NCBI GenBank assembly: GCA_944323155.1
Contig: CALURL010000004.1
Coordinates: 1 to 64,000, forward strand
Direction of reading: 5' to 3'
DNA from: Candidatus Gastranaerophilales bacterium
GTDB lineage: Bacteria; Cyanobacteriota; Vampirovibrionia; Gastranaerophilales; Gastranaerophilaceae
DNA length: 64,000 bases
Position numbers and translations under genes: made by a program. This document shows positions 22,757 to 39,126 of the stretch, piece by piece. The notes beneath the pieces are model-generated. The model saw only the letters and a list, made by a program, of their open reading frames with translations. It did not search any database and was not told where the DNA came from. Within the stretch, counting starts at the first letter, position 1, and each line of letters begins with the position of its first letter.

Positions 22757-22784
22757 TTGATTATTTGGTCAAAATGATTATAAT
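22757..22784 (+). promoter_or_regulatory. Promoter for leaderless FliI-type ATPase gene
   Basis: TTGATT (22757-22762), a 16-base spacer and a perfect TATAAT (22779-22784) end seven bases before the ATG at 22792. The predicted transcription start is therefore at the start codon, and there is no Shine-Dalgarno sequence. Confidence 0.6.
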
Positions 22785-22791
22785 AATTTAT

Positions 22792-24138
22792 ATGAAGGGT
22801 TTGGATACAAGCAGTTTAGATGATTTAAAATTACGTGTTCATAAAAAACTAGAGGAAACAGAATTATACCGGTTTAAAGGAACTGTTTCCAAACTTTTAG
22901 GTTTGACAGTTGAGGTTAAGCTGCCAGGATTAAAGATTGGTGATTTGTGTTATATTGAGACTTATGACGGTAAGCAAAAACCGGCTGAGGTTGTTGCATT
23001 TAAAGGCGAAGCCGCGCAGTTGCTTTTGTTATATGATGGAGAAGGCATTGGTCAGGGAAGCTTAGTAACTACTACAGGGCGTCCGATTATTATTCCTGTT
23101 GGAGATTTCTTGTTGGGAAGGCTTATTAATCCAATGGGCGAACCAATTGATGATAAGCCTTTAGATACAACAGGAGCAGTTTGGCGTCCTATTGAGGGAC
23201 CTCCTCCGGGGCCTTTTGAAAGACCTATTATTACGGAAATGTTTTCGACAGGTGTTCGCGCAATAGACAGTTGTATGACAATGGGCTGTGGTCAGCGTTT
23301 AGGTTTATTTGCAGGATCTGGTGTAGGTAAAAGTACGCTTTTGGGTATGATTGCAAGAAATTCAGACGCAGATGTAAACGTTATGGCGCTGATTGGAGAA
23401 CGCGGCCGTGAAGTAAAAGAATTTGTTGAAGATTCTCTTGGTGAAGAAGGTATGAAAAAGTCTGTACTGGTTTGTTCAACCGGTGACCAGCCGCCTCTAA
23501 TCAGGCAGAAAGCTTTACTTACTGCTACTGCTGTGTGTGAATATTTTAGAGATCAGGGTAAAAAAGTTTTTCTTATGACAGATACAGTTACCCGTTGCGC
23601 TATGGCAGGGCGTGAAGTAGGATTGTCAATCGGAGAGCCTCCTACTATGAAAGGTTATCCGCCTTCAATCTTTTCATGGCTGCAAAAAGTTCTTGAACGC
23701 GCGGGAAATTCTCCGAAAGGCTCAATTACAGCATTATATACAGTTTTAATGGAAGGTGATGACATTTCAGACCCGATTGTAGATATTGTCCGCGGGATTG
23801 TTGACGGGCACATTTTCCTATCAAGAAAAGTTGCCGAGATGAACCATTACCCTGCAATTGACGTTTTAGGAAGTATTTCAAGGCTTATGTCTGCTATTGC
23901 TACTCCCGAACACAAAGAAGCTGCCGGTAAAATGAGAAAAATTATGGCAATGTATCGAGAAAATAAGGATTTGATTGATGTAGGTATGTATCAGCCTGGG
24001 ACTAACCCGAAACTTGATATTGCAATTGAAATGATGCCAAAAGTTAACGCATTTTTGCAGCAGAGAACTTCTGATCTCGTAAGTATGGATACAACAATAA
24101 GCACTCTTATTGATATGATGAAAGATGTAGATATTTAA
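22792..24138 (+). CDS. fliI: FliI/SctN-type flagellar or type III export ATPase
   Basis: A 448-residue F1-beta-like ATPase of the FliI/YscN/SctN group. From the ATG at 22792, Walker A is AGSGVGKST at about residues 174-182, followed by NVMALIGERGREVKEF, the Walker B strand KVFLMTDTVTR and EVGLSIGEPPTMKGYPPSIF, all characteristic of export ATPases rather than ATP synthase beta. An alternative TTG at 22765 lies inside the promoter. No fliH, fliJ, fliG, fliF or flhB gene is nearby; zupT follows. With the soluble FlhA_C fusion at 7700 it may belong to a reduced export device. The ATPase family is firm, the system is not. Confidence 0.9.
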   Translation: MKGLDTSSLDDLKLRVHKKLEETELYRFKGTVSKLLGLTVEVKLPGLKIGDLCYIETYDGKQKPAEVVAFKGEAAQLLLLYDGEGIGQGSLVTTTGRPIIIPVGDFLLGRLINPMGEPIDDKPLDTTGAVWRPIEGPPPGPFERPIITEMFSTGVRAIDSCMTMGCGQRLGLFAGSGVGKSTLLGMIARNSDADVNVMALIGERGREVKEFVEDSLGEEGMKKSVLVCSTGDQPPLIRQKALLTATAVCEYFRDQGKKVFLMTDTVTRCAMAGREVGLSIGEPPTMKGYPPSIFSWLQKVLERAGNSPKGSITALYTVLMEGDDISDPIVDIVRGIVDGHIFLSRKVAEMNHYPAIDVLGSISRLMSAIATPEHKEAAGKMRKIMAMYRENKDLIDVGMYQPGTNPKLDIAIEMMPKVNAFLQQRTSDLVSMDTTISTLIDMMKDVDI

Positions 24139-24176
24139 TTTGTTCGTGGTAATATTATTTTTGGAGGAATAGTGAA

Positions 24177-24977
24177 ATGGTATTACCACAGAATTTTGGT
24201 TTAGCAATGCTAATTACCCTGTTTGCAGGTTTAACAACTGCAATCGGCGGTGCTGTAGCGTTTATTGTTAAGAAAGATAATTTGAAAGCTCTATCAGTCG
24301 GACTCGGTTTTTCGGCTGGTGTTATGATATTTCTTTCTTTTACTGATATTATTCCTGAAGCAGGTGAAATGCTTTCCAAAAATTTTCCGAATACACATGA
24401 ATGGCTTGTGTTTTCAGGTTTTATAATCGGAATTGTTGTTGCAATATTAATAGATTACTTTTTACCTGATCACATAGATCCGGATGAACTTTTAGAACCA
24501 GATGCTCCTTGTAAGCATAATCATAAAATAAAAAGAGCAGGATTGTTGACCGCAATTGCAATATGTGTGCATAATTTCCCAGAAGGAATGGCTACATTTT
24601 TAACTACTACGCAGAATATAACTTTAGGTTTGTCCGTTGGGCTGGCTATTGCAATTCATAATATTCCGGAAGGTATTGCAGTAGCGCTTCCTATATATCA
24701 TGTTACAGGAAAACGCCGTTATGCAATGCTTTATGCTGCGTTATCCGGAATTACTGAACCTATCGGGGCTTTAATTGGAATGTTCTTGTTCAGCCTGTTT
24801 ATTCCACAAATTCTTGTTGGAATTTTACTCGCTGCAGTTGCTGGTATAATGATTTATTTATCATTTGATACGCTGCTTCCGCTTGCAAGAGAATACGGAA
24901 ACTGGCATTTATCAATGGTAGGTATTGTTTCTGGAATGCTATTTATATGGATAGGCTTAATATTACTGGGTATGTAG
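24177..24977 (+). CDS. zupT: ZIP-family zinc/divalent metal transporter ZupT
   Basis: A 266-residue inner-membrane protein with about eight hydrophobic segments, importing zinc and other divalent metals. The two metal-binding helices carry the family signatures HNFPEGMA and HNIPEGIA, and a histidine-containing loop (KHNHKIKRAG) lies between spans 3 and 4. Length and motif order match bacterial ZupT. GGAGG precedes the ATG at 24177, and the gene starts 38 bases after the FliI-type ATPase, so it may be co-transcribed with it. Confidence 0.93.
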   Translation: MVLPQNFGLAMLITLFAGLTTAIGGAVAFIVKKDNLKALSVGLGFSAGVMIFLSFTDIIPEAGEMLSKNFPNTHEWLVFSGFIIGIVVAILIDYFLPDHIDPDELLEPDAPCKHNHKIKRAGLLTAIAICVHNFPEGMATFLTTTQNITLGLSVGLAIAIHNIPEGIAVALPIYHVTGKRRYAMLYAALSGITEPIGALIGMFLFSLFIPQILVGILLAAVAGIMIYLSFDTLLPLAREYGNWHLSMVGIVSGMLFIWIGLILLGM

Positions 24978-24996
24978 TTAAATTGTAGAGGTATGA

Positions 24997-26067
24997 ATGT
25001 CTAATTTATCTAATCTATTTGATTTTGGCAGAAATTTATATGCAATGCCATCTTACATGTCAAATTCCGGTAAAGCTATGATACCTCTTCGTTACTTTTT
25101 TGAATTAACATACCGGTGTAATTTACAGTGTCCTTATTGTTATGTTGGAAGTGACAGAAATAAAGAAGAACTTACAACTGATGAATGGTTTAAGATTATT
25201 GAGCAAATTCCGTTTTATTCATTCGTAACTCTTGTTGGCGGTGAACCGTTAATTAGAAAAGATTTTATAGACATCTTGCTGAAAACAGCTAAAAAGACAA
25301 TGGGCAAACTTAATGTTGTCTCAAACGGAATTTTGATTAATGATGATATAATCGACGCTTTTATAAAAAGTAAAATGATGCTTTTATCAGTTTCTCTAGA
25401 TGGTTTCGGGAAAAATCATGACTTCAATAGGGCAAAAGACGGTATATGGGATAAAATTATGAATAATTTTGATAACATGAATTCCCGTAAAAAACGTCCG
25501 ATGATTGATATTAAGACAATTGTTCTTGAAAATAACCTTGATGATTTGCCAAAACTTTACAAGATGTGTGATGAAAAAAATTTTAATTTTTTATCAATAT
25601 CGTTTTTGAGAAATAACAATTTAAAACAAAATTCTGTTCTTTTCGATACTTTTGTTCCTGAGTTTAATGCAAATTATCCGATAGAAAAATACTTTGATAT
25701 GGAGCATTTTAAGGAAGTTTATAAGGAATTGATGAGTTTATCTAAAAAGTCAAAAGTTCAGATACGTTTTTCTCCAAAATTTGAGTATGCAAAAGACCCT
25801 CTGGCAAAAATTGAAGAATTTTTTAATACACCTTCTGATAAACCTGTGTCAGAGATTTATAAGCCGTGTATGTATCCGTATTCTAATATGATGATAAATC
25901 CTCATGGCGATGTTTATCCTTGTTTATCTCAGAGAATAGGTAATGTTAAAGATATGTCTTTAATAGATGTATTCAATCTTCCGCACTACAGATGTTTCCG
26001 AAAAAATCTTAAGGCTGCAAAGGTTTTCGGCGCTTGCCAGATGTGCTGCGAATTATGTGTAAAATAG
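24997..26067 (+). CDS. Radical SAM protein with SPASM-type C terminus
   Basis: A 356-residue radical SAM enzyme. The cluster motif is CNLQCPYC (about residues 38-45), followed by TLVGGEPLIRKDF and VSNGILIND. The C-terminal part has a cysteine pattern of SPASM type (CMYPYSNMMINPHGDVYPCLSQ region, then CR and CQMCCELC), which holds extra iron-sulfur clusters and is common in peptide-modifying maturases and in coenzyme PqqE/MoaA-like enzymes. No short precursor peptide gene is evident next to it, so the substrate is unknown. It starts 19 bases after zupT. Confidence 0.87.
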   Translation: MSNLSNLFDFGRNLYAMPSYMSNSGKAMIPLRYFFELTYRCNLQCPYCYVGSDRNKEELTTDEWFKIIEQIPFYSFVTLVGGEPLIRKDFIDILLKTAKKTMGKLNVVSNGILINDDIIDAFIKSKMMLLSVSLDGFGKNHDFNRAKDGIWDKIMNNFDNMNSRKKRPMIDIKTIVLENNLDDLPKLYKMCDEKNFNFLSISFLRNNNLKQNSVLFDTFVPEFNANYPIEKYFDMEHFKEVYKELMSLSKKSKVQIRFSPKFEYAKDPLAKIEEFFNTPSDKPVSEIYKPCMYPYSNMMINPHGDVYPCLSQRIGNVKDMSLIDVFNLPHYRCFRKNLKAAKVFGACQMCCELCVK

Positions 26068-26281: not shown

Positions 26282-26680
26282 ATGGGATATATTCATTGCT
26301 GTGGTGCTTTGCACAAGACAAGGACATATAAGCTTGCGCCGCAGACAGAATTTTTAGTGTGTGAAGTAGACTATCTTTCAAAATGTCCGGTATGCGGGCA
26401 TACTGTTGTCCAACTTACAAGAATTGATAAAAACAAAAATTTATCTGTTATAAGAAAGGTAAATACTAAGGCTAAAAAATTTTTTCAAAAACTAAAAAGC
26501 CAATTTATTTATGAAATTCGTTCGTATAATTATTCATCAAATTCGAGTAGTGATTTTTACCTTAACTACAATGAATATGGTGTGAAAAAACGCTGTTATT
26601 CAAATCTTAGTTCATTGAAGATAGGTTTAACAGAAAATAAAGATTTAAAATCAATAGATGTTATAAATGTCAAAAATTAA
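26282..26680 (+). CDS. Small zinc-ribbon-like protein at the edge of the virion cassette
   Basis: A 132-residue protein starting MGYIHCCGALHKTRTYKL. Cys6-Cys7 and a later CPVCGH (about residues 38-43), together with other cysteine and histidine residues, suggest a small zinc ribbon. The rest is basic and serine/asparagine-rich, without a known domain. It follows a roughly 210-base leader region and is closed by a terminator at 26706. Small zinc-ribbon proteins are common at the edges of phage modules, so I treat it as the first gene of, or next to, the virion cassette. Confidence 0.6.
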   Translation: MGYIHCCGALHKTRTYKLAPQTEFLVCEVDYLSKCPVCGHTVVQLTRIDKNKNLSVIRKVNTKAKKFFQKLKSQFIYEIRSYNYSSNSSSDFYLNYNEYGVKKRCYSNLSSLKIGLTENKDLKSIDVINVKN

Positions 26681-26705
26681 TCCTTTTACTATCTTACTCA
26701 TTAGC

Positions 26706-26733
26706 AGGAAGCTTATGCTTCCTCTTTCTTTTT
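26706..26733 (+). terminator. Rho-independent terminator
   Basis: AGGAAGC (26706-26712), loop TTAT, GCTTCCT (26717-26723), then CTTTCTTTTT. It separates the zinc-ribbon-like gene from the LuxR-type HTH gene. Confidence 0.85.
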
Positions 26734-26821
26734 AATGAAACAGGAAATATTATGAAAGTTAAATAATTCTTTTTTAGTAAGCTAGTATAAGACTAACCAA
26801 AATATAAATAAAGGAATTAAG

Positions 26822-27034
26822 ATGAGTTTATCACCAAAGGAAATTCAGGTATTGACTTTGGTTGCATTGGGTTATTCAGATAAAGAAATCTGTAGTGAAT
26901 TGAAGATTAAATATGGCACGGTCAGAACGTATATTGATAGAATAGTGTTAAAGCTTAATGCAAAAAACAGAACCCATGCAGCCATATTATATATAATCAA
27001 TCATCCTGAATGGAGTGTAAATTTTTCAAGGTAA
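26822..27034 (+). CDS. LuxR/GerE-type HTH regulator, HTH only
   Basis: A 70-residue protein made only of a LuxR-type DNA-binding domain: LSPKEIQVLTLVALGYSDKE, then a turn and KYGTVRTYIDRIVLKLNAKNRTHAAIL, the standard four-helix pattern with the recognition helix in the middle. It has no receiver or sensor domain. The ATG at 26822 follows AAGGAATTAAG. It ends just before the amidase gene, so it is the first gene of the virion transcript and a plausible activator of it. Confidence 0.82.
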   Translation: MSLSPKEIQVLTLVALGYSDKEICSELKIKYGTVRTYIDRIVLKLNAKNRTHAAILYIINHPEWSVNFSR

Positions 27035-27036
27035 AT

Positions 27037-27534
27037 ATGAAAAGAATAATAATACATTGGACAGCAGGAGGTCACTATCCGACTGCTAGTGAACTTTTTT
27101 ATTATCATTTTTTGATTGATAAGGATGGAAAGTATTACCGTGGCAAGTTTAGGCCAAGTGATAACGAAAACTGTAAGCCGGCAAGTTATGCACCCCACAC
27201 AGGAGGCGGTAATACCGGCTCAATAGGCGTTGCATTATGCGGAATGTCAGGGTTTAAGAATAAGAAGAAAATTGGGAATTATCCTATTACAAAAATTCAG
27301 TTTGAGTCAGCTATGAAATTGTGTGCTGAACTTTGTTTAGAGTATAAAATTCCTGTTACAGGACAAACCATTATGACACATTATGAATTTGGTCTTAAAC
27401 ATCCTAAAACATCCAGTGCCGGGAAAATAGATATAATATTTATTCCTCCTTATCCCTGGGTAGAAAGGCAAGAGGCGGGAAGCTTTATTAGAGCAAAGAT
27501 TAAGTGGTATTTATTAAAGTTAAAAGGAGATTAA
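27037..27534 (+). CDS. N-acetylmuramoyl-L-alanine amidase (phage-type endolysin)
   Basis: A 165-residue peptidoglycan amidase of the Amidase_2/PGRP fold. It cuts the bond between MurNAc and the stem peptide. The metal-site elements are IIIHWTAGG (His near residue 7), YAPHTGGGNTGSIGVALCGM, and a third element around THYEFGLKHP and GKID. I use the ATG at 27037, two bases after the HTH gene stop and preceded by AAGG; an upstream in-frame start at 27010 overlaps the HTH gene. It has no signal peptide, so release would need a holin. In a virion cassette it could act in lysis or in entry. Confidence 0.85.
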   Translation: MKRIIIHWTAGGHYPTASELFYYHFLIDKDGKYYRGKFRPSDNENCKPASYAPHTGGGNTGSIGVALCGMSGFKNKKKIGNYPITKIQFESAMKLCAELCLEYKIPVTGQTIMTHYEFGLKHPKTSSAGKIDIIFIPPYPWVERQEAGSFIRAKIKWYLLKLKGD

Positions 27535-27535
27535 T

Positions 27536-29065
27536 ATGTCAGAAATATCTTTTTATAATTTATCCGGTGGTATAAACTTAGCCGCGACTAAAACAGAGTT
27601 AGGTTTAGATACAAAAAAAATATATTGGTCAGATTCTAAAAATATAGAAATTTTATCAAATAAAGGCATTGTAAAACAAAAGGGTAATGTTATATTTTTT
27701 GAACTTCCAGTACCAGAAAAAATAACAAGTATAACAGAGATGGTTTCAAAACCCAATAATAAGCTTGTAATTACAACTGTTTCAGGCAAAATTTATGTTT
27801 ATAATAATCAAATTGGGCAGGCGGTTTTATTAGACAAAACATTAAATGGTGAAAAGCCAAGGTTTGTTAATTTTTTAAACGGCTTGGTTGGGATTTCAGA
27901 ATCAGACGGGCTTTTTTATATAAAAGACAACGGGAATAATAATTACGAAGTTTTGGAATGCGACTTAAAAGATTCATCTGATGAACTTGTTACTGATGCT
28001 GTTATTACAGTATTTAGAGGCAGAATATTTGTCGCAAAAGATGCAACGATTTATTATTCTGCGCTTGGAACTTATGATGATTTTGAAACTGAAAATGATG
28101 CAGGCTATATAAGAAATTTTCATACAGATACTGATGAAATTACTGCATTAAAACCATACAGGGATTATCTTGCAATATACAAAAGGAATAAAGTGTATTT
28201 GTTATCAGGAACTACTCCTGAAGATTTTGCAATTCAGCCGTTTGCAGATAAAGGTTCATACTCTGCCGATGCAATTGTAAATGTTAATAACAAACAGTAT
28301 TTTTTGAGTGACGGAATATTTGCATTGGAGCAGGTTGGGGAATTAAATCAAATCCAGTTAGGTTCTGAAATTACATCCAATATTCGTCCAGAATTTGAAC
28401 ACTTTACATATACAGGTCTGGCAAATGCATTTTGTATTCACTATCCTAAAAAAAATCAGGTCTGGTACTTTTTTCCGTATATGAATGATGAATATTTTCA
28501 TACAATTTGGATTAATGATTATGTTAATAAATCCTGGTTCAAGCGGGTTTTACCTCAGGATATAACGTGTGCAGCCAGTTATAACGGAGATATTTTAACA
28601 GCAGATTCATCAGGCTGCATTTATAAGGAAGATACAGGAAACACCTTTGACGGGCAAGCAATAGAATTTATGTGGAAATCTCCATTTCTTGCAATAACAC
28701 AGGCTCATCACAGGAAAACAATCGATGAATTTTATTTTATTTTGGATAATTCTTATGATAATGATTTTAATTTTTCTATATACAAGGATTATGACAGTGA
28801 GTTTTCTGATGATGTAGAGCACATATATTGTTATCACGAAGAACATTTTATGTGGGGAGACGATACATCTGATGCAAAATCAAATGAATGCTGGCCTGTT
28901 GATAATGCAATGTATCCAATATGGGCGGTTAATACAGATGTTATGGAAAAAGCAGAAATCTCAGAAGCCAATTATTCAATACAGCTTTGTATCGAAGGAA
29001 ATGAAATAACAAGTTCCTGTGCAATAATAGGACTTCATTTTAAAGAAATATATAACGATGATTAA
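27536..29065 (+). CDS. Phage tail-hub/head-completion protein, P22 gp10-like beta-propeller
   Basis: A 509-residue beta-rich protein. It starts NLSGGINLAATKTEL and then repeats blades of about 45-50 residues (for example NKLVITTVSGKIYVYNNQ, RIFVAKDATIYYSALG, YLAIYKRNKVYLLSGTTP, KQYFLSDGIFALEQVG), as do P22 gp10-type hub proteins that close the portal after packaging. An acidic, aromatic C-terminal beta domain follows. AAGGAG precedes the ATG at 27536. It is placed directly before the coat gene. The propeller pattern is visible; the exact gp10 equivalence is inference. Confidence 0.6.
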   Translation: MSEISFYNLSGGINLAATKTELGLDTKKIYWSDSKNIEILSNKGIVKQKGNVIFFELPVPEKITSITEMVSKPNNKLVITTVSGKIYVYNNQIGQAVLLDKTLNGEKPRFVNFLNGLVGISESDGLFYIKDNGNNNYEVLECDLKDSSDELVTDAVITVFRGRIFVAKDATIYYSALGTYDDFETENDAGYIRNFHTDTDEITALKPYRDYLAIYKRNKVYLLSGTTPEDFAIQPFADKGSYSADAIVNVNNKQYFLSDGIFALEQVGELNQIQLGSEITSNIRPEFEHFTYTGLANAFCIHYPKKNQVWYFFPYMNDEYFHTIWINDYVNKSWFKRVLPQDITCAASYNGDILTADSSGCIYKEDTGNTFDGQAIEFMWKSPFLAITQAHHRKTIDEFYFILDNSYDNDFNFSIYKDYDSEFSDDVEHIYCYHEEHFMWGDDTSDAKSNECWPVDNAMYPIWAVNTDVMEKAEISEANYSIQLCIEGNEITSSCAIIGLHFKEIYNDD

Positions 29066-29127
29066 TAAAAAAGCCACCACTCATTATTTAAGTACAACAA
29101 TAATTTAACCAAGAAAGGAAACAAAAC

Positions 29128-29988
29128 ATGACAGAAAACGCTTACTCTGCATTTATTCCAGAGATATGGAGCCAAAAACTTAATGCAATGTTGGAAAAAG
29201 AATGCGTTATGCTTCAATGTGTAAACAGAAATTATGAAGGCGAAATTAAAAATCAAGGTGATAAAGTAAAAATTATTACACCTGCAGAAGTTGCTATTTC
29301 AACATTAAGTACAAGTAATATTTCATATAGTGAACTTGCACCAACATCAATGGATTTGGTAATTGATCAGAAAAAATTCTTTGCATTTAAAATTAATGAT
29401 GTTGCGCAGGTTCAAGCAAATACTGATATTATGGAAGCTCACTTGAAAAATGCTAAAAAAGCAATTGAAGAAGTTCAAGATGCTTACCTTCTATCACAAC
29501 ATACAAATGTAGATTCAAAAAATATTGTAGGAAGTGACTCAGCTCCAATTGCACTGGATAAGACAACAATTTATGAACAGTTTGTAAAACTTGCTTTGGC
29601 ATTGAAAAATTCAGATGCCGTATCTGCAACAAAACGCCCGTGGGTTGTAATTAACCCGACAATTGAATCATATCTATTACAAAGCAGTGAATTTATCGGC
29701 GCATATAAAGTTGCAGATGAAACACTAAGAGAAGGCGCAATTGGCAGAATTGCAGGCATGGATGTACTTGTAAGTACAAATTTAACTGCAACATCTAATA
29801 AATTCTATGTTTTAGCCGGTACAAACGATGCAATTACATTTGCCTCTCAGTTAGCAAAAATTGAAAGCTTAAGAGACAAAGATTCATTCTCTGACCTGGT
29901 TAGAGGTTTATATTTGTACGGTGCAAAAACAGTTCAGCCAAAAGCACTTGCAAAAATGGTTGTCAAAGATCCTTCTGCTGCAGCATAA
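29128..29988 (+). CDS. Major capsid protein (HK97 fold, P22-coat-like)
   Basis: A 286-residue coat protein. The N terminus (FIPEIWSQKLNAMLEKECVM) and NRNYEGEIKNQGDKVKIITP are the typical opening of this phage coat family, followed by the DLVIDQKKFFAFKINDVAQ E-loop/spine region and the A-domain-like segments around GRIAGMDVLVSTNL. The sequence is full length with no disruption. AAGAAAGGA precedes ATG 29128. It is followed by a perfect hairpin at 30041 and by the scaffold candidate. Together with the portal and terminase genes, this identifies the region as a capsid-forming unit. Confidence 0.85.
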   Translation: MTENAYSAFIPEIWSQKLNAMLEKECVMLQCVNRNYEGEIKNQGDKVKIITPAEVAISTLSTSNISYSELAPTSMDLVIDQKKFFAFKINDVAQVQANTDIMEAHLKNAKKAIEEVQDAYLLSQHTNVDSKNIVGSDSAPIALDKTTIYEQFVKLALALKNSDAVSATKRPWVVINPTIESYLLQSSEFIGAYKVADETLREGAIGRIAGMDVLVSTNLTATSNKFYVLAGTNDAITFASQLAKIESLRDKDSFSDLVRGLYLYGAKTVQPKALAKMVVKDPSAAA

Positions 29989-30040
29989 TTTGTGAAAATT
30001 AAATAAGTTAAATATAAATATTTACCCTGATCAAAATAAA

Positions 30041-30074
30041 AGTGTATCCTTGAATAATTTTTCAAGGATACACT
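30041..30074 (+). terminator. Perfect 12-bp inverted repeat after the coat gene
   Basis: AGTGTATCCTTG (30041-30052) and CAAGGATACACT (30063-30074) form a perfect stem with a ten-base loop. The 3' side has only a weak T run (CCATTTTG), so it may be an attenuator or an mRNA-stabilising stem that keeps coat mRNA abundant, rather than a full terminator. Confidence 0.65.
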
Positions 30075-30100
30075 CCATTTTGAGAAGAAAGGATATACTG

Positions 30101-30349
30101 ATGTTTACTAAACTTAAAAGAACAATAAAAGAACTTGCTAAACAGGCAGTTTATCTGGCTGAAAAAACTCTGAGCGGTGAAGACGGAAAAAGAAAAAAAC
30201 AGATGGCACTTGAATACATAATATCTAATATTCCGGTATTTGCGCCTTTTAAAAAGATTATTGCAAAACTTCTTTCGGATTTTATAGATGATGCAATAGA
30301 ACTTTCTGTTTTGACAATGAAATCTTTATCGCACGGATTTGAACAATAA
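30101..30349 (+). CDS. Small virion-cassette protein, possible holin-like
   Basis: An 82-residue basic protein. I start at ATG 30101, which has GAAAGGA upstream; an in-frame start at 30050 lies inside the hairpin. A lysine-rich N terminus is followed by an amphipathic segment (ALEYIISNIPVFAPFKKIIA) and an acidic helix. The middle is moderately hydrophobic but not a clear membrane span. It lies between the coat and scaffold genes. It could be a small head or holin-like protein; function is not certain. Confidence 0.5.
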   Translation: MFTKLKRTIKELAKQAVYLAEKTLSGEDGKRKKQMALEYIISNIPVFAPFKKIIAKLLSDFIDDAIELSVLTMKSLSHGFEQ

Positions 30350-30358
30350 GGAGAAATA

Positions 30359-31072
30359 ATGAATATGCAAGATAAAAAGAATGCACAATTAATGAATACA
30401 AATTCTTCAAATATTTCATCAAATGCCGTTTACCAGCAGACACTGGCGGATGCATTACAAACAAGTGAGGCAGCAAAGCCAAATCAAGCTGCTTCTTCTT
30501 CAATGTCAGATGCAGAAAACCAGATAAAACAAATGGCGCTAAAGGATATTCAACAAATCGAGAACATGATTAATTCAGGTGTTGTAAGTCCGGAACAAGG
30601 ACAAAATTTAATGAATTATGTAGTGAATAAAGCGTATAATGAAGTGAAACAACAAAAAGGGCTTTCAACACAGCAACCTGTTCAAAATTCTGTGCCTGCC
30701 GCGGGTTATCTTAATAACCTCGACAATCCTGAATTTTTTCAACAGGATGGAAGAAATCAAGTTCTTGAATATTTGAAAAATTCTTATCCCACTGTTGGTA
30801 AAGATGAAATGTCTCAAATTATTAATATGATAACAGGAGTTGAAAACTCTGCAATACAGAGATATTTGAGAAAGCAGGAGCACGATAAAGCACTAATGAA
30901 TGCAAATGAAGCTGCAAAACAGAGATTAATTGCAAATGCGCAAAAATCCAATGCAGGAAACGGAACCGGAGTGATTTTTACTCGTGAGCAAATCGGCAAA
31001 ATGAGTGGTGCAGAATTTGCAAAAAATGAACGTCTAATTATGGATCAGTTAAAAAGAGGTCTTATTCGTTAG
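30359..31072 (+). CDS. Putative capsid scaffold protein
   Basis: A 237-residue, Gln/Asn-rich, helical protein without cysteine. The N-terminal 55 residues are low complexity, the middle is predicted helical, and the C-terminal 30 residues contain FTREQIGKMSGAEFAKNERL, a motif I know from phage scaffolding proteins that bind coat at their C terminus. AAGGAG precedes ATG 30359. It lies just after the coat gene, whereas in P22-like phages the scaffold precedes it. The role is inferred from position, composition and this C-terminal motif. Confidence 0.65.
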   Translation: MNMQDKKNAQLMNTNSSNISSNAVYQQTLADALQTSEAAKPNQAASSSMSDAENQIKQMALKDIQQIENMINSGVVSPEQGQNLMNYVVNKAYNEVKQQKGLSTQQPVQNSVPAAGYLNNLDNPEFFQQDGRNQVLEYLKNSYPTVGKDEMSQIINMITGVENSAIQRYLRKQEHDKALMNANEAAKQRLIANAQKSNAGNGTGVIFTREQIGKMSGAEFAKNERLIMDQLKRGLIR

Positions 31073-31101
31073 AATTTTGTGAATTTATAATCTTTAAGCG
31101 G

Positions 31102-31129
31102 GCAGCCTTTTTATTAGGCTGCTTTGTTT
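31102..31129 (+). terminator. Hairpin terminator after scaffold gene
   Basis: GCAGCCT (31102-31108) pairs with AGGCTGC (31116-31122), followed by TTTGTTT. Confidence 0.75.
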
Positions 31130-31157
31130 AAAGATGTTAAAAAGATTAGGAGAAAAC

Positions 31158-31796
31158 ATGAATTATTTGGAGATTGTTAATAAATGTCTGATTGAGCTTA
31201 ATTACAAACAGGTAAATGCTTTTTCGGAATTAATAAAAAATGATCATAAAAAATTAAAAAATATAATAAATGTTATAAATGCAGAACTGTGTAATTTTGA
31301 TAACTGGAATTTTTTGCTTCGTAAGTCTGTTTTACATCTTTCAAAAGGCGAAACAGAAATTGATAACACAATTGCCGGAAGAATAGAATCTTTAATTGCA
31401 GACGGAAATGTTCTTGAATATTATGAAGATTTTGAAAAATTCTTTACAAATACACAGCCTTCTAATACATACAGTATTTTTAACAATAAAATTTTGCTGC
31501 CGGAATATGATAGAGATATTGATATAGATGTAATTTATTACACAAAGAATTGTGCTGTAAATGAATCAGGTGAAGAAATTCTCGAATTGACAGATGGAAC
31601 TGATGAATCTTTAATCCCCATGCCTTTTGCAGAGCCTTTACTTGTGTATGGCGCATGTATGAGATTAAAAGGAAATCCGCAGCATGTAAGATTTAATTAC
31701 TGGTATGGCATGTATAAAGATGCACTTGCAAACCTTCGTGCAAAGGTTTCAATAACTACTGATGATATTCCGACAATCAAGACTCACAGAAGGTAA
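31158..31796 (+). CDS. Head-tail adaptor-like protein
   Basis: A 212-residue protein. The ATG at 31158 has TTAGGAG upstream and is preferred to ATG 31134, which lacks a site. The opening MNYLEIVNKCLIELNYKQVN and the strong Trp/Tyr content (DNWNFLLR, FNYWYGMYKDALANLRAK near the C terminus) resemble the P22 gp4-type ring proteins that attach under the portal. It is located between scaffold and small terminase. The adaptor call is by build and context only. Confidence 0.55.
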   Translation: MNYLEIVNKCLIELNYKQVNAFSELIKNDHKKLKNIINVINAELCNFDNWNFLLRKSVLHLSKGETEIDNTIAGRIESLIADGNVLEYYEDFEKFFTNTQPSNTYSIFNNKILLPEYDRDIDIDVIYYTKNCAVNESGEEILELTDGTDESLIPMPFAEPLLVYGACMRLKGNPQHVRFNYWYGMYKDALANLRAKVSITTDDIPTIKTHRR

Positions 31797-31961
31797 AAAT
31801 CAGAATTTCGGACAAAAAAAACAGGAAGTAATTTCATTTCCCCCCTGTTAAGATTTACACTAGCCGAAATATAAATAGCATGCTTATTATACAATTTTTT
31901 TCAAAAAAACACAAATATTTATAAGAAATGTTAATAATTTTAATAAAAGAATAAAACAATA

Positions 31962-32399
31962 ATGAAAAATTTAACTCAACAGCAAAAACAATTTGTATTT
32001 GAATATATAAATTCTCTTGATGGAGAGTATTCTGCAAAGAAAGCCGGTTACAAAGCAAAGGATTTGAAATCTGTCGCAAACAGATTACTTTCTGACAAAA
32101 TAATTGTTAATGAAATTAAATTACAAATCCAAAAACAAATATCTTCGTTAAGAGTTCACAAAGGATATGTTATACAAAAACTTTTGCAGATTGCGGAATT
32201 TTCTCTGGAGGAGGAGGATATTCTTGATAAAGACGGAGGTTATACAGGCAAGAAAAAATTACGTGACACATCTGCAGGTCTAAAAGCGCTTGAAAGTCTC
32301 TGTAAATATCTTGGATTTTCTTCTAATAACAAAGAAGAGGATGAATACAATCAAGCAAAAATTATAACTATTTCGAATTTAGATGATGAAAAAATTTAG
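31962..32399 (+). CDS. Phage terminase small subunit
   Basis: A 145-residue protein matching the small terminase pattern: LTQQQKQFVFEYINSLDGEYSAKKAGYK (seen as an N-terminal HTH), followed by ANRLLSDKIIVNEIK, a coiled oligomerisation region and an acidic tail. This subunit recognises viral or host DNA and delivers it to the large subunit for packaging. ATG 31962 lies about 165 bases after the adaptor gene, in AT-rich DNA with an AACAGG...CCTGTT repeat at 31820-31849. Its DNA target cannot be predicted from this window. Confidence 0.82.
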   Translation: MKNLTQQQKQFVFEYINSLDGEYSAKKAGYKAKDLKSVANRLLSDKIIVNEIKLQIQKQISSLRVHKGYVIQKLLQIAEFSLEEEDILDKDGGYTGKKKLRDTSAGLKALESLCKYLGFSSNNKEEDEYNQAKIITISNLDDEKI

Positions 32400-32411
32400 A
32401 GGAAAGTTATT

Positions 32412-32771
32412 ATGAAGAATCAGGAAAATGTAGAAAAAATGCTTCTTGAAGGTGCATCATTAGAAGATTTAATAAGGATGAAAATAGAAGAAGAATTTAA
32501 AAATGAAGCTGAAAAATTGAAACATAAGCCTCAAAAAATTACTTATACGGAAATATCAAAGGTTCCTGAAAAGTATATTTTTTCTAAGAATTCTGTATTC
32601 AAAGTTTTCAATAAAAGAACTAAAAACGAATCTTATATAAACGGAGTTCAAGCAGAAGCCCTTTTAGGAATTCAATATAACGTGCGCGAACAAATATTGA
32701 AAGGTTTGCTGAGCGCGTTTATCACAGAAGATGCATATGTAAGATTTGAGAAAGCTGATGTCTGGGAATAA
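32412..32771 (+). CDS. Virion-cassette hypothetical protein
   Basis: A 119-residue charged protein beginning with a helical, glutamate-rich region (EDLIRMKIEEEFKNEAEKL) and a basic C-terminal domain (FKVFNKRTKNESYINGVQAE, GIQYNVREQILKGLL). No family recognised. GAGGAAAG precedes ATG 32412. Its stop overlaps the next start by one base, so it is translationally coupled to the GNAT gene. Confidence 0.65.
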   Translation: MKNQENVEKMLLEGASLEDLIRMKIEEEFKNEAEKLKHKPQKITYTEISKVPEKYIFSKNSVFKVFNKRTKNESYINGVQAEALLGIQYNVREQILKGLLSAFITEDAYVRFEKADVWE

Positions 32772-33295
32772 TGATTGAATTTTTAAATATAACAATAAAA
32801 CGTAATACTGGACATTACGAAAATACCAAATATTTTACCGAAGTTATGTTTTTATATTTAAGATATGCGAAATTTTTGGATGATGATTACGCTCTGAACG
32901 GACAGTCTTTTTATGAATATTTCTGCGGGCTTGTCGAAAGGTTAAGCCCTTTTTTCTGGGTAATTTTGTATGACGGAAAGGTCTCCGGATTTGTTTTTCT
33001 TGACAATATAATCGGCGACAGCAGCCGCCTTCATTCGGCGGAACTTACAACTTGTTTTCATAAAGAATTCTGGGGCAGTTATACAAAATACTGCGCAAAG
33101 TTATTTTTAAATCACTGTTTTAATCGTCTAAAATTCAAAAAAATTAAAGCGCTTATTTATCCGCAAAATTTCAGAGTAAAAACACTATTGAAAGCAAGCG
33201 GTTTTCAAAAAGAAGGATATCTTAAATCAGAAACGCTAAAAGATAATAAATTGCAGGATATTGAAATATATTCTGTACTAAATCAGGAAAGGTAA
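32771..33295 (+). CDS. GNAT-family acetyltransferase inside the virion cassette
   Basis: A 174-residue GNAT-fold protein. FFWVILYDGKVSGFVFLDNI gives the central beta strands, AKLFLNHCFNRLKFKKIKALIYPQNFRVKTLLKASGF (seen in part) follows the acetyl-CoA helix and the usual C-terminal asparagine helix, ending QKEGYLK. The typical pyrophosphate loop is weak. It overlaps the preceding stop by one base and precedes the portal gene by 5 bases. Some phage structural operons carry such genes, perhaps to modify virion or host proteins; the target is unknown. Confidence 0.7.
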   Translation: MIEFLNITIKRNTGHYENTKYFTEVMFLYLRYAKFLDDDYALNGQSFYEYFCGLVERLSPFFWVILYDGKVSGFVFLDNIIGDSSRLHSAELTTCFHKEFWGSYTKYCAKLFLNHCFNRLKFKKIKALIYPQNFRVKTLLKASGFQKEGYLKSETLKDNKLQDIEIYSVLNQER

Positions 33296-33300
33296 TTTTT

Positions 33301-34977
33301 ATGAAAATAGAAACTGAAGATTTAACTCAAAAATTAAATGAAACAGATGCAATTTATTTGACAGGCAGTATCGCTGAGAAATATGACAAATTTGAAGATG
33401 AGCGTACTGCACAGTTGAATGATATTCGTCTTGTAAGAGATGCAATATATAACACTGACATCCCAAAATTGAACGGCTGGGACAATAAGATTGAACTGCC
33501 GGATATTTATGAGCTTGCTCAAACATTAAAATCTCATATCAGCGAGAATTTATATTCACATCCTGATGCAATGTTTGATGTTACAGGAACTACGCCTCAA
33601 ACACAGGCTTTTGCAAACAGGCAAAAAGCAATGCTTGTCAATACATTCGAGCAGATGAATATTGAAAATGAAATAGAAAAAGTTATTGATGGAATTGTTG
33701 AAACAGGCGAGGCAACCTTATTTGTCGGCTGGGAAACTAAAATTAAATCAACAAGGCGTGCAAAAACTTTTGAAGAAGAACTTATGCACCCTGAAACAAA
33801 AGGCGGTTTTGTAATTGAAGATAAAGTTACATACGATAATGCAAGAATTAAACATATTAAAGCTGAAGATTTTGTTTTTGATAAATATAATCGTGATAAC
33901 TGGGATTCTTGCGCAAAAATTTATCGTACTTATGCTTCGCTCGAGGATATATTCTCTGACAAATCAAATAACTGTCTTACTGAAGAAAAAACGGAAGAAT
34001 TGAAAGGAGTGGTGGCAAATAAAAAATCACGCAGCAGCCTAAGCGCCAATAGAGCTGTTGACGGTAATAAACTTGAAATTTTAGAATACTGGGGAGATAT
34101 TGAATTATCAGACGGAAAGGTTTTGAAAAACTGGCTGGTTGTTGTTGCCGCAAGAAAAGAAATTATCCGATTTGAACCGAATCCGTTTATCATAAATCCT
34201 TTTATCCACGCAAATATTATAGAATCACCGCATACTTTAAGAGGAGTTTCTCCATTACGTGTGGCGTTGATATTAAATAATATAGCTTCAACTATTTTGA
34301 ATAAACAAATAGATGCTCTTGCATTAATGATGAATCCTCCATATCTTGCGCCGAAAGGCTGTTTTAAAGGTCAGCAGGATGTCAAGCCGGGGAAAATTAT
34401 TGAATATGATGCCGCTTTAATGCCGACTCAGCCAATTCCTTTATCTTTTGATAAAGCTATGGTCGGCTGGGATTTCTTGAATTATTTCAAATCAACAATA
34501 GAAAGCGCTACAGGAATTTTCAAAAATATGGCGGGAAATATTCAAAATGCACAGCGTACGGCAACAGAATTAAATTATTCCGTAAGCGGTCAGGAAGCAA
34601 GATTAAACATGCTTCTTGATACAATTAACAGAAAAATTGTTGTTCCTATGGTTGAGAAAACTGCAGAAATTATTTCTTATTTTAAACTCGGTAAAGAGTT
34701 AATAGGAACAAACGACAGAGGCAAAACTATGTTTGTTGAAATTGACGATGATGTTAGAAATGCCAATTACATTTATCGTTATGGGGATAGAAAAGCCTCT
34801 TTTGAAAGAAAACTTCGATTGAAAGAGTTATTTGAAGTTGTTCAATCATTTGCAAATGTTCCGGAGGTTGAGGAACAGATTAACTGGCTTGAATGTTTCA
34901 AATTTGCTTTGGAACAATACGGAATTGAAAACGCAAATAATTTTCTTTTGAACAAAGACGATGAAATCCAAAAGTAA
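33301..34977 (+). CDS. Phage portal protein
   Basis: A 558-residue portal of the P22/podovirus type, forming the dodecameric ring through which DNA is packed. Features are the N-terminal wing (YDKFEDERTAQLNDIRLVRD, then DNKIELPDIYELAQTLKSHI), a stem/clip region (IDGIVETGEATLFVGWE), ESPHTLRGVSPLRVALILNN, and a long helical C-terminal crown region with QNAQRTATELNYSVSGQEARL, typical of portals. No disruption is seen. The gene lies 5 bases after the GNAT gene and 113 bases before the large terminase. Confidence 0.85.
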   Translation: MKIETEDLTQKLNETDAIYLTGSIAEKYDKFEDERTAQLNDIRLVRDAIYNTDIPKLNGWDNKIELPDIYELAQTLKSHISENLYSHPDAMFDVTGTTPQTQAFANRQKAMLVNTFEQMNIENEIEKVIDGIVETGEATLFVGWETKIKSTRRAKTFEEELMHPETKGGFVIEDKVTYDNARIKHIKAEDFVFDKYNRDNWDSCAKIYRTYASLEDIFSDKSNNCLTEEKTEELKGVVANKKSRSSLSANRAVDGNKLEILEYWGDIELSDGKVLKNWLVVVAARKEIIRFEPNPFIINPFIHANIIESPHTLRGVSPLRVALILNNIASTILNKQIDALALMMNPPYLAPKGCFKGQQDVKPGKIIEYDAALMPTQPIPLSFDKAMVGWDFLNYFKSTIESATGIFKNMAGNIQNAQRTATELNYSVSGQEARLNMLLDTINRKIVVPMVEKTAEIISYFKLGKELIGTNDRGKTMFVEIDDDVRNANYIYRYGDRKASFERKLRLKELFEVVQSFANVPEVEEQINWLECFKFALEQYGIENANNFLLNKDDEIQK

Positions 34978-35090
34978 ACTGAATCTATTAGTCTATTCTC
35001 TGCCGTCCCTTTCAGGTTCTTTTCCGACTCCTCATGCATAAATGACCATTTCTATTCCAAGGGGCGGCTTTTTCTTGCAGGTAAAAAGTT

Positions 35091-36380
35091 ATGGAGTATA
35101 AGTTATTAAAAGCGCAGCGGGAATTTTTGGAAATTCCTCATAATTACAGTTTGGATATTGCGGTATATCAAGGCGGATATGGTTCCGGCAAAACTTTTGC
35201 AGGATCTCTTCTTGGAATATTGTTATGTTTGAAGTTCCCCGGTGTCCGCGGGCTTGTCGGGGCACAGACTTACACACTTGTTCGTGATACTACTTTGCAG
35301 ACTTACTTTGAACATCTTGACAATATTGGTTTTCGCGATGGATTTGATTATGAATGGTCATCTTCTTTGCAGAAACTCACGTTCAAAAACGGGTCTGAAA
35401 TTTTATTCAGACATTTTGATGAACCTAATAAATTAAAATCTTTAAACCTTGGATTTGTAGAGATAGAAGAAATGTCTGATATTCCTTATGAAACATTTAA
35501 GATGTTATTAGGCCGTATGCGGCAGAGGGTTAAAAAAACTTGGAAAAATTTTACATACAGAATTTTCGGGCATACAAATCCGGAAATGCACAGGGGTTGG
35601 GTTTATAAAACCTTTGTTGAGAATACTGCACCGAATTATCGTTTAATTACCGCTCCGACAACACAGAATATTTATCTCCCTGAAGGGTTTTGCGAAGAGC
35701 TTAAAAAGTTATATGATGAACATTATTATAATATTTTTGTTCTTGCGCAAAACGGCGATTACAATAACGGGCTTGTGGTGAAAGATTTTACTGATGAAAA
35801 TGTGAAATCTATAACTTACCAGCAGGATATGGATTTACATATAAGCTGTGATTTTAATGTTGATCCGATGTCATGGGTTTTAGCGCATAAAACTGATGAC
35901 AAGGTTTTTTATTTTGATGAAATTGTTTTGGAGAACACTACAACTTCAAAAGCGTGCGATGAATTTTTCAGGAGATACCCCAGTCATAAGGGAAAAATTA
36001 TTGTTAATGGAGATGCCTCCGGCGACAATAGAAGCTGTACAAGTGAATATACGAATTATGTAATTATCAAGAAAAAACTTCTTCAATACGGCTATGATGT
36101 TGAAATTCAAATAAAAGCATTTAATCCTCCGATAAAAAACAGGGTTATGGCGTTTAATTCTAAGGTTCGTTCAGCCGAAGGGGAAGTTTGTCTGTTTGTT
36201 GATAAAAAGTGTGAAAAACTTCTTTATAACATTTATAACCTCAGATATAAAGAAGGGACTTCCAAAATTGATATTCCGACATATCAGCAGATTAAGCAGA
36301 CAAAAGAGTTGAAATTTCTTTCACATCCGTTTGATGCTGCGTCTTATCTTGTTGATTTTTATTGGCCGATAACTTTATAA
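35091..36380 (+). CDS. Phage terminase large subunit
   Basis: A 429-residue packaging motor with both activities apparently intact. The ATPase has Walker A GGYGSGKT (about residues 28-35) and Walker B GFVEIEEMSD. The RNase H-like nuclease has its three acidic positions in ISCDFNVDP, IVNGDASGD and HPFDAASYLV. The length is normal for the PBSX/Terminase_3-like group. ATG 35091 follows AGGTAAAAAGTT. Intact catalytic motifs argue that the cassette is functional or only recently inactivated. Confidence 0.9.
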   Translation: MEYKLLKAQREFLEIPHNYSLDIAVYQGGYGSGKTFAGSLLGILLCLKFPGVRGLVGAQTYTLVRDTTLQTYFEHLDNIGFRDGFDYEWSSSLQKLTFKNGSEILFRHFDEPNKLKSLNLGFVEIEEMSDIPYETFKMLLGRMRQRVKKTWKNFTYRIFGHTNPEMHRGWVYKTFVENTAPNYRLITAPTTQNIYLPEGFCEELKKLYDEHYYNIFVLAQNGDYNNGLVVKDFTDENVKSITYQQDMDLHISCDFNVDPMSWVLAHKTDDKVFYFDEIVLENTTTSKACDEFFRRYPSHKGKIIVNGDASGDNRSCTSEYTNYVIIKKKLLQYGYDVEIQIKAFNPPIKNRVMAFNSKVRSAEGEVCLFVDKKCEKLLYNIYNLRYKEGTSKIDIPTYQQIKQTKELKFLSHPFDAASYLVDFYWPITL

Positions 36381-36392
36381 GGAAAAATTATT

Positions 36393-37046
36393 ATGGAAAC
36401 AGAATTAAAAAGATTGCATTACAAATCAAATATTTTGAAGCGTCTTTGTATTCATACAAATGATATGTCTGTAGGAAAAATCGGAACTGATTTGCCGCAT
36501 GGCTGGCATGTTGTGGAAGCGGAATACAATCCGAAAACAAATTTTAAATGTATGATTTACAGGAACAAAAACCAAGTTGTTTTTAGTTTTGCCGGAACTG
36601 ATAAAAAAAGTATTCTAGATCATGCTGCAAACATTCAAATGTGTTTTGGCACAATTAACAACCAGATGAAAAAGGCAAATGAGTTTTTTCAGGTTATGAA
36701 AAGACGTTATGTGAGAATTTTTGATGAGGTTACGCTTGTTGGACATTCAGAAGGCGGAAGCGAGGCAACATTTGCAGGTGTTTTGAATAATATCGAGACA
36801 GTTACTTTTAATACTTATGGTATCTCTAAGAAACTAATACTAAAAGACAAAGATTATACCAATTTAATTACGAACTACAGAAGCCCGCATGATATAGTTT
36901 CAAAATTACGCATAAATCCGGGCCGAACTTTTATAATCCCCTCAGACTCAGGTTTTTTGCGAGCTCACAGTATAAAAAATATGGGAAATTGCCTTGATGC
37001 AATTCCTGTAGAAATTTATAAAAAGAAGCATTTTTTGTTTAGATAA
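36393..37046 (+). CDS. Lipase-like alpha/beta hydrolase
   Basis: A 217-residue alpha/beta hydrolase of the class 3 lipase/Mbeg1-like type. The nucleophile elbow is VTLVGHSEGG (Ser near residue 118); the likely acid is in RSPHDIVSKL and the histidine in AHSIKNMGN. VVFSFAGTDKKS is the conserved strand before the nucleophile. No signal peptide. AAGGAAAA precedes ATG 36393, 12 bases after the terminase. In a virion cassette it may help membrane lysis or act on host lipids during exit or entry. Confidence 0.75.
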   Translation: METELKRLHYKSNILKRLCIHTNDMSVGKIGTDLPHGWHVVEAEYNPKTNFKCMIYRNKNQVVFSFAGTDKKSILDHAANIQMCFGTINNQMKKANEFFQVMKRRYVRIFDEVTLVGHSEGGSEATFAGVLNNIETVTFNTYGISKKLILKDKDYTNLITNYRSPHDIVSKLRINPGRTFIIPSDSGFLRAHSIKNMGNCLDAIPVEIYKKKHFLFR

Positions 37047-37054
37047 GGAAAATT

Positions 37055-37285
37055 ATGGAAAGTTTATTGCATTATTCACCGATATTGATAGCGATTATGG
37101 TATTTTTAATTCAGCAAAGGATTGTTGTAACGCCTGAAATGCTTGAGAAAAAACATAGAGAAATTATTGAGGAAATTGAAGAAAAATTTGTCACACTCAA
37201 TAGTTTCAAAGATTTGAAATATCAGTTTTCTGAAGTAAAAGAAAAAATTGATAAAATGTATGATTTGCTGATAGATTTGAAATAA
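37055..37285 (+). CDS. Small one-span protein with coiled coil at the end of the virion cassette
   Basis: A 76-residue protein with a single N-terminal hydrophobic segment (PILIAIMVFLI, residues 9-19) and a long charged coiled coil (EKKHREIIEEIEEKF onward). AAGGAAAA precedes the ATG. This topology fits a pinholin, a spanin-type protein or a lysis regulator. It is the last gene in the same-strand run; a 117-base gap follows before the next unit. Confidence 0.6.
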   Translation: MESLLHYSPILIAIMVFLIQQRIVVTPEMLEKKHREIIEEIEEKFVTLNSFKDLKYQFSEVKEKIDKMYDLLIDLK

Positions 37286-37402: not shown

Positions 37403-39034
37403 ATGGGATTGGCAGCTTCACAAGCAAGATTTTTAGCCATAACTGCAAGAAAAGCAAGTTGTGAATTTCAATCTATGCAACTCGCTCAAGAGAAGCTTTC
37501 CCTTACTCGTGCCTTAGCTAACGCTACACAGAAATACCAAAACTCATTAAATCAAACAAAATTAGTTTGGGATATGGATGGAACAACGGGTACTGCAGCT
37601 GCAACCGGACAAACATATGATTTAACATATGATGTTATGATGACACCGTCTGCTCTGAATAGTTATGATCCGTATTTTATAACATCAAGAACAGGTAAGA
37701 TTGTTCTTAATTCTGCAATGGCAAAAGCTGCAGAAGCCGCAGGTATAGCCCGTGACGGTTCTACTATTCCTGATGAGAGTGGTTTTTATAAATTTTTGGA
37801 ATGTATGGGACAAAATGGTGCTATAGCACCTTCAACAGTTACAACTTTGTCTGCAGGTTATGATATTGAGGGAACTCATCATTCCTATTACATCCCTGAT
37901 GCAGGTATTGGCGGTGAACCTATTGATAAGACTGGCGCAAATGCTATGACTATTGGTACAATGTTGGTCTATATAAAGGATAAATTAGAAGAAGAACCTT
38001 ATGATTCCAGCTGGACTTCTGGTGGAGGTACGGCAGAACCATTTGGTAATAAAGCAACGTTTAAATTAGAAAATCTTTACGCAAGTTATGACAGCTCAAA
38101 TGCTGATAAACAAGCTATATTTATAAATTCAACAAAATATAATAAAGCAGATGACAGCTTTGATTTATTGGATTTGCTAAGCGGTAATGTTACTTATGTC
38201 GCTCAGGAAGGACTTGGTGAACAAGAAGCCAAAGATGCGATTATTGCTGTTGCTGATAAAGTTATTGATTCTATAAAAGGATTATTTGCTGATGATATTC
38301 AAAATAGTCAGGCTATGGCTTCTGCTGAAACTCAGTTAAAAGATCTTCTCAATGGTACAATTATAGATTTAGGCGGTACAAGAGGCGGTTATACTAATGA
38401 TGCAAGCAAGATTAATGATAGCGCAAATGCATATAACGTAATTGTAAAAACTGACGGAACATATGGTATAAGTTTATCTAATATGGCAAGTGCATTCTTG
38501 ACATATTATGCGCTGATTTGCGGTGAATATGATGTTCCTTATAATGTTCGTAACAGAGTTGATGATTCTGATTTGGTAACAGAAGATCCTAACTATTATT
38601 ACGTTCTGAGAAACGAAGATGCTGTAACTGAAAAAGATATGTTACTCGGAAACTTTTACAGTATGATGTACAACAATATCTGTAAAACAGGCTGGACAAC
38701 AGCATCAGGTAATGTTGATGATAAAGAATATCTTTCTCATGCAATTAAAAATGGTCAGTTATTCATATCATCTTTGAATACGGATAATACATATTATCAA
38801 GATCCATATACATTCAATGGTCATGTTATTGAAGTTACTGATGAAGATGCGATTACTCAGGCAGAACTTGAATATGAACAAACAAAATCTACTCTTAACT
38901 ATAAAGAAGAACAACTTGAATTAGATATGAAAAATATTGATACCGAAATATCAGCCCTAACAACTGAATATGATACAGTTAAGAACTTGATAAGCAAGAA
39001 TGTAGAAAAAGTATTTACAATGTTTAGTTCATAA
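37403..39034 (+). CDS. Unknown protein with flagellin-like terminal helices
   Basis: A 543-residue protein I cannot assign to a named family. The N terminus (MGLAASQARFLAITARKASC) and residues to about 60 form an amphipathic helix without a Sec signal. The middle is a Ser/Thr/Asp/Gly-rich domain of low hydrophobicity, and residues 480-543 form a long coiled coil (LELDMKNIDTEISALTTEYD). Helical ends around a variable beta-rich centre are the plan of flagellar axial and hook-associated proteins. AAAGGA precedes ATG 37403. With a FliI-type ATPase and FlhA_C elsewhere, it is a candidate export substrate; this is inference. Confidence 0.7.
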   Translation: MGLAASQARFLAITARKASCEFQSMQLAQEKLSLTRALANATQKYQNSLNQTKLVWDMDGTTGTAAATGQTYDLTYDVMMTPSALNSYDPYFITSRTGKIVLNSAMAKAAEAAGIARDGSTIPDESGFYKFLECMGQNGAIAPSTVTTLSAGYDIEGTHHSYYIPDAGIGGEPIDKTGANAMTIGTMLVYIKDKLEEEPYDSSWTSGGGTAEPFGNKATFKLENLYASYDSSNADKQAIFINSTKYNKADDSFDLLDLLSGNVTYVAQEGLGEQEAKDAIIAVADKVIDSIKGLFADDIQNSQAMASAETQLKDLLNGTIIDLGGTRGGYTNDASKINDSANAYNVIVKTDGTYGISLSNMASAFLTYYALICGEYDVPYNVRNRVDDSDLVTEDPNYYYVLRNEDAVTEKDMLLGNFYSMMYNNICKTGWTTASGNVDDKEYLSHAIKNGQLFISSLNTDNTYYQDPYTFNGHVIEVTDEDAITQAELEYEQTKSTLNYKEEQLELDMKNIDTEISALTTEYDTVKNLISKNVEKVFTMFSS

Positions 39035-39126
39035 TAATAAAGATTTCCTTAAGATATATAACAAATTTTCCTTGTCCATGCTAGTATTGTAATAGAAATA
39101 CCAGTTACGGAGAGGAAAATTTTTTT

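Follow-up and report, generated by a model that had tools for sequence, protein, structure and literature searches.

A candidate podovirus-like gene-transfer agent in the chromosomes of Gastranaerophilales

Introduction

To our knowledge, very few gene-transfer agents (GTAs) have been described outside Alphaproteobacteria. In the viriform sense, a GTA forms particles that contain mostly random host DNA, and at best part of the GTA cluster itself; the DNA is delivered to recipients, and expression is host-controlled and confined to a minority of cells (PMC9662315). FpGTA of Faecalibacterium is the first podovirus-like GTA to be reported (Borodovich et al. 2026; PMC12946183). In this work, we describe an ~11-kb run of head, packaging, short-tail and lysis genes, all on the + strand, at positions 26282-37285 of a 64-kb window, which is the whole stretch of Candidatus Gastranaerophilales DNA that was analyzed. 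The Gastranaerophilales are an order of gut bacteria, related to cyanobacteria but not photosynthetic. The run is bounded by a radical SAM gene upstream and a SecA-linked gene downstream. We consider it likely that this cassette is a domesticated, vertically inherited podovirus-like GTA of Gastranaerophilales. It is a candidate rather than a proven member of the class, and we infer packaging and transfer of DNA from its genes and by analogy.

In design, FpGTA appears to be the closest known analogue. By description, it is likewise a chromosomal operon, of ~10.5 kb, with TerS, TerL, portal, scaffold and coat genes, is predicted to be podovirus-like, and is near-ubiquitous in its own genus of gut anaerobes (PMC12946183). 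FpGTA belongs to another phylum, however, and the Gastranaerophilales cassette is far more widely spread, over 17 genera. The fiber, receptor-binding, holin and endolysin genes of FpGTA lie in a second operon, whereas the lysis genes of the present cassette are in the main operon. Moreover, FpGTA TerS is reported to have no obvious DNA-binding domain, while here the Terminase_2 N-terminal domain is retained. RcGTA/Rhodogtaviriformidae and CcGTA share with the cassette vertical, host-congruent inheritance, purifying selection and the lack of replication and integration genes. The long-tail module of RcGTA (tail tube, tape measure) has no counterpart here, and a T7/P22-type adaptor and nozzle are found instead. 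The portal family and the adaptor and nozzle folds are those of short-tailed cyanophages (A-4L and relatives) and SU10-type podoviruses, but the cassette has no replication, metabolism or fiber module and is inherited with the chromosome. Identity to the nearest named phages is ~31% for TerL, ~35% for the coat (record MW495066, discussed below, excluded) and ~22% for the portal.

Distribution and inheritance

Among 146 related genomes, 37 from 17 genera each have one window-type coat gene, at 72-100% identity, and one further genome is recognized by its TerL; all 38 belong to a single family. Coat matches among named genomes are to Candidatus Gastranaerophilales metagenome-assembled genomes, a few of which are labeled Fusobacterium or Clostridiaceae. 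In the neighborhoods compared, the gene order is constant and the host flanks recur, with FliI, ZIP and radical SAM genes on the 5′ side and a host protein family and SecA on the 3′ side. In a count over 49 named full-length loci, none lacks the coat, TerL, TerS, portal, scaffold, adaptor, amidase, a LuxR-type domain or the conserved protein u32412; internal stops are flagged in the holin (5), the adaptor (3) and a zinc-finger-like gene (1).

All rpoB-sampled cassette genomes fall within one supported clade, in which the source genome is represented by a genus-mate. The rpoB gene itself was not found in the source genome despite a completeness rating of 99.66%, likely owing to an assembly gap. 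In trees of 22 genomes, 8-9 of 19 splits are common to rpoB and each of coat, TerL and portal, and 10 to rpoB and their concatenate, compared with a mean of ~0.3 after shuffling, and no strongly supported conflict between cassette and rpoB trees is seen in this set. Distance correlations with rpoB range from 0.60 to 0.80 and exceed every permutation. Genus g2, which lies inside the cassette clade, has neither the window-type coat nor TerL, and its host genes adjoin the same radical SAM gene; the absence reads as loss.

The single copy, the conserved order and flanks and the congruence with rpoB, together with the host-like dN/dS and invariant catalytic residues described below, strongly support domestication, with the cassette handed down vertically through 17 genera or more, as judged from sequence comparison. 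An earlier sequence-only reading of this DNA had proposed domestication as a possibility and advised a search for the same cassette at syntenic positions; these data bear the idea out. That reading named two kinds of counter-evidence, a full prophage occupying the site in relatives and a patchy, discordant distribution; both were looked for and neither was seen.

Selection and catalytic residues

Pairwise dN/dS values (Nei-Gojobori) are rough, as dS is mostly large. They amount to 0.021 for TerL, 0.04 for TerS, 0.056 for the portal, 0.06 for the coat and ~0.03 for the small protein u37055, and the host genes secA and fliI give 0.022 and 0.02. TerL is essentially invariant in 90 copies at the Walker A motif (GxGKT), E124/E126/E127 and Asp 254, 308 and 415 of the nuclease region, and amidase residues H16, H63 and H124 are invariant across 100 sequences. 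To judge from these values, the cassette is under strong purifying selection. Host-like dN/dS and invariant active sites contradict decay, in agreement with the sequence-only reading, which had asked for the coat and portal values. Its claim of intact catalytic motifs holds across homologues for TerL and the amidase; the third enzyme it listed, a "lipase", proves to be an accessory gene found in 13 of 49 loci.

Gene content and predicted particle

Sequence assignments rely on PHROGs and Pfam, and fold assignments on AF2 models compared with Foldseek. The genes of the cassette and its flanks, all on the + strand, are as follows, with occurrence in the 49 loci.

22765..26067, +, host flank upstream: FliI-type ATPase, ZIP transporter and radical SAM/SPASM protein; borders the cassette in this order in many genera
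26282..26680, +, zinc-finger-like small protein with cysteine pairs, leader gene; no family match; 37/49
26822..27034, +, stand-alone LuxR/GerE DNA-binding domain, candidate operon regulator; Pfam GerE 2.3e-16; 49/49
27010..27534, +, N-acetylmuramoyl-L-alanine amidase, endolysin-type; Amidase_2 2e-15, phrog_5867 8e-32; 49/49
27536..29065, +, predicted tail nozzle/hub of short-tailed phage type; phrog_3287 2.5e-17, AF2 pLDDT 83; 46/49
29128..29988, +, major coat protein; phrog_267 1.7e-50; 49/49
30050..30349, +, holin-like protein; phrog_6918 2e-7, Phage_holin_6_1 4e-5 (just below cut-off); 38/49
30359..31072, +, putative scaffold adjoining the coat gene; no family match; 49/49
31134..31796, +, predicted portal-tail adaptor, T7 gp11 type; AF2 pLDDT 89, sequence match of just 4e-4; 49/49
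31962..32399, +, TerS with the N-terminal Terminase_2 region retained; Terminase_2 3.7e-14; 49/49
32412..32771, +, conserved cassette protein u32412; no meaningful family match; 49/49
32771..33295, +, GNAT acetyltransferase; Acetyltransf_3 3e-8; 45/49
33301..34977, +, portal; phrog_332 8.7e-35, Pfam SU10_portal 1.5e-19; 49/49
35091..36380, +, TerL, ATPase and nuclease; Pfam Terminase_3 2.8e-21; 49/49
36393..37046, +, alpha/beta-hydrolase with a GHSxGG motif (the "lipase"), accessory; Mbeg1-like 9e-6; 13/49
37055..37285, +, small transmembrane and coiled-coil protein u37055, last cassette gene; 46/49
37403..41763, +, host flank downstream: fast-evolving host protein family (39/49), then SecA (16/49, a count limited by the 10-kb flank)

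The coat, scaffold, adaptor, portal, TerS, TerL, hub and lysis genes named in the sequence-only reading are thus all located on the + strand by PHROGs, Pfam or fold, the scaffold by its position and a short shared segment. This segment is 50-61% identical to scaffold-position proteins of family f9, a group of the same class, and the protein clusters with the coat-adjoining protein of other families. Structure prediction settles the hub-like protein as a nozzle of the P22 gp10/T7 gp12 kind, with the Pa223, VP1, PhiM1 and P22 gp10 nozzles as best Foldseek matches (best E 7e-19, TM 0.73). The modeled adaptor is likewise settled as T7 gp11-like: the cyanophage A4 portal-tail complex is matched first (E 1e-9), and SU10, N4 and T7 gp11 are also found. 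Its true start is probably at ~31158. The LuxR/GerE reading frame overlaps the start of the amidase frame. At the other end, the gene at 37055 is part of the cassette, as it recurs in nearly all loci; a relative sits between the nozzle and fiber genes of the type B clusters described below. A GNAT-sized gene adjoins TerL in two f9 genomes as well.

With portal, adaptor and nozzle encoded, the particle is not strictly tail-less, as the sequence-only reading had it. On the models, these parts form a complete connector and the particle would be podovirus-like and short-tailed, although no tape measure, tail tube or fiber is encoded in the cassette. The other absences noted earlier are upheld. PHROGs and Pfam scans recognize no integrase or replication gene within the cassette or flanks, the 64-kb window contains no tRNA, and the flanking direct repeats are just short imperfect pairs, none convincing, with no att sites. 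Rfam has no match in the window and PADLOC returns a single negligible one. The GC content of the cassette (30-36%) is inside the range of the flanks.

The protein family at 37403-39034 (N-terminus MGLAASQARFLAITAR) lies directly 3′ of the cassette in most genera and has no family match. A role of its product as a stand-in fiber is not supported: several loci lack the gene next to the cassette, and the protein matches no phage family.

Related clusters and the PhiMa05 record

The sister sub-clade has no window-type coat and instead carries a diverged cluster, type B, with TerL ~57% and coat 22-25% identical. Type B was found in genera g24, g28, g29, g34 and g40 (loci L170-L174, L176-L178, L180, L181, L184 and L070). 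It resembles the cassette in being chromosomal and in having related coat, portal, adaptor, nozzle and TerL, but it has kept collar-fiber and BppU-like genes; strong matches to the collar-fiber profile are confined to type B genomes. Type B TerL identity drops with host distance, which suggests, from sequence, that this type is also vertically inherited. One genome (G052) has both a window-type and a type B cluster. In some of the related clusters (L056, L070, L171 and L173), repeated small membrane-protein and hydrolase genes interrupt the phage genes, and many of these insertions are encoded on the other strand.

In family f9, five genomes (loci L063-L067) contain a chromosomal portal-scaffold-coat-adaptor-nozzle cluster, often with a fiber gene, in which coat, portal, adaptor and nozzle are related to those of the window. 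The f9 TerL is at a separate locus (L328-L332), alongside a second conserved protein in 4 of the 5 genomes. In a coat tree, f9 joins the window type and other Gastranaerophilales types in one group apart from phage coats, with type B outside, though this is a single gene with long branches.

The best phage match for coat, portal and nozzle is MW495066, "Microcystis phage PhiMa05" (273,876 bp), which was published as a jumbo phage. Between its cassette and that of genome G140, identity is 81-98%, and the neighboring genes match G140 in the same order (ftsH 99%, proS 93%, lepA 95%, pgcA 90%); lepA adjoins the cassette in another genus too (G111). The sampled stretches of the record (L321, record positions 194601-236244; L349; L350, all MW495066.1) encode nusG-rplK-rplA, smc-scpAB, secDF, uvrA, ruvA, tRNA synthetases and flagellar genes. 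The original PhiMa05 paper describes neither a terminase nor a sheath gene, yet myovirus-looking particles, from a lysate that was DNase-treated before extraction. According to a 2026 paper, the 274 kb in common represent a prophage from which Vampirovibrio received ribosomal proteins (PMC13157829). From its gene content, the record appears to be an f9 cassette within a Vampirovibrio-type bacterial chromosome, and chromosomal origin, by contamination or by particle packaging, is a simpler reading than a prophage. The DNase treatment fits packaged chromosomal DNA but does not prove it. One may go further and trace a GTA back to an ancestor shared by Gastranaerophilales and f9, which would make it class-wide in Vampirovibrionia with lineage-specific gene orders, and the PhiMa05 record, as a Vampirovibrio-type chromosome, may have been recovered through packaging; we regard this wider scenario as possible but doubtful.

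Host cassettes are also found among viral sequences: 36 of the 37 IMG/VR "viral" contigs that match the coat (L266-L302) carry the cassette, several with host flank genes. Within the same set, L301 is related but rearranged and has a gene that may be of a replication type.

Assessment of a gene-transfer agent and its alternatives

Like GTAs in the viriform sense (PMC9662315), the cassette consists of chromosomal phage-derived structural and packaging genes, is co-inherited vertically with the host, has TerL and coat genes that evolve slowly under purifying selection, and includes, with its flanks, no genes for autonomous replication or integration. It cannot spread by itself because the latter are missing. 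A podovirus-like GTA, which would be new for this phylum, is the best explanation. A host signal, perhaps acting through the LuxR-type protein at 26822, would switch the operon on in a few cells; this conserved DNA-binding gene near the operon start is the sole pointer to host-controlled expression. The coat would be built on the scaffold around the portal, TerS and TerL would fill the heads with chromosomal DNA with no preference for the cassette, and adaptor and nozzle would seal the head and form the short tail. After lysis by holin and amidase, the particles would pass host DNA to kin via the nozzle, with adhesion provided by an unrecognized or host-encoded factor.

Several points weigh against a GTA. 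The cassette is known here from its genes, and particles, packaging and transfer are predictions. No fiber or receptor-binding gene is recognized in the cassette. The sequence-only reading had advised looking for missing parts elsewhere in the genome, and the collar-fiber profile from type B clusters (A1) has no match in the source genome, a search that covers one fiber type and leaves other types unsearched genome-wide. The retained N-terminal domain makes sequence-specific packaging by TerS possible. Scaffold and holin evolve faster (dN/dS ~0.2), so some parts are loosely constrained, and the cassette has been lost in a few genomes.

The missing fiber, together with the conserved lysis enzymes, would suit a domesticated particle that packages DNA and does not deliver it, a killing or lysis device of the PBSX kind. 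The portal-adaptor-nozzle route for DNA is complete and conserved, however, and known killing particles carry contractile or long tails rather than the short tail encoded here; we find such a device unlikely. A particle serving another host purpose (a DNA or protein compartment, altruistic lysis or interference with phages) could account for the GNAT, zinc-finger-like and u32412 genes, which travel with the cassette. Against this improbable reading, conservation is among the highest for TerL, TerS and portal, and the nozzle has been retained, which points to DNA packaging and exit.

Of the three options offered by the sequence-only reading, a GTA fits best, and the satellite and the decaying remnant are contradicted. 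A compact, fiberless head and packaging set recalls a cfPICI-like, capsid-forming satellite or a helper that other elements use, as do the accessory genes inserted among phage genes in some related clusters. Such an element is very unlikely given the fixed vertical inheritance, recurring neighborhood and rpoB-congruent trees of a cassette that has neither an integrase nor att sites nor a replication module. Even less credence attaches to an old, defective and slowly decaying prophage: integrase, replication and fiber genes are indeed absent, but the same 12-15 genes are intact over 17 genera, with dN/dS like that of the host and active sites unchanged. A functional prophage was rejected, as the full set of replication, fiber and lysogeny genes is not present.

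Significance

Our literature search found no paper linking GTAs with Gastranaerophilales. The present results bear on databases, as the IMG/VR "viral" contigs contain the host cassette, and the chromosomal look of PhiMa05 undercuts published claims of viruses that encode or donate ribosomal proteins. If the cassette is indeed a GTA, which could be tested with virome long reads, gene exchange through host-owned particles would go back a long way in an animal-gut lineage within the cyanobacterial phylum.

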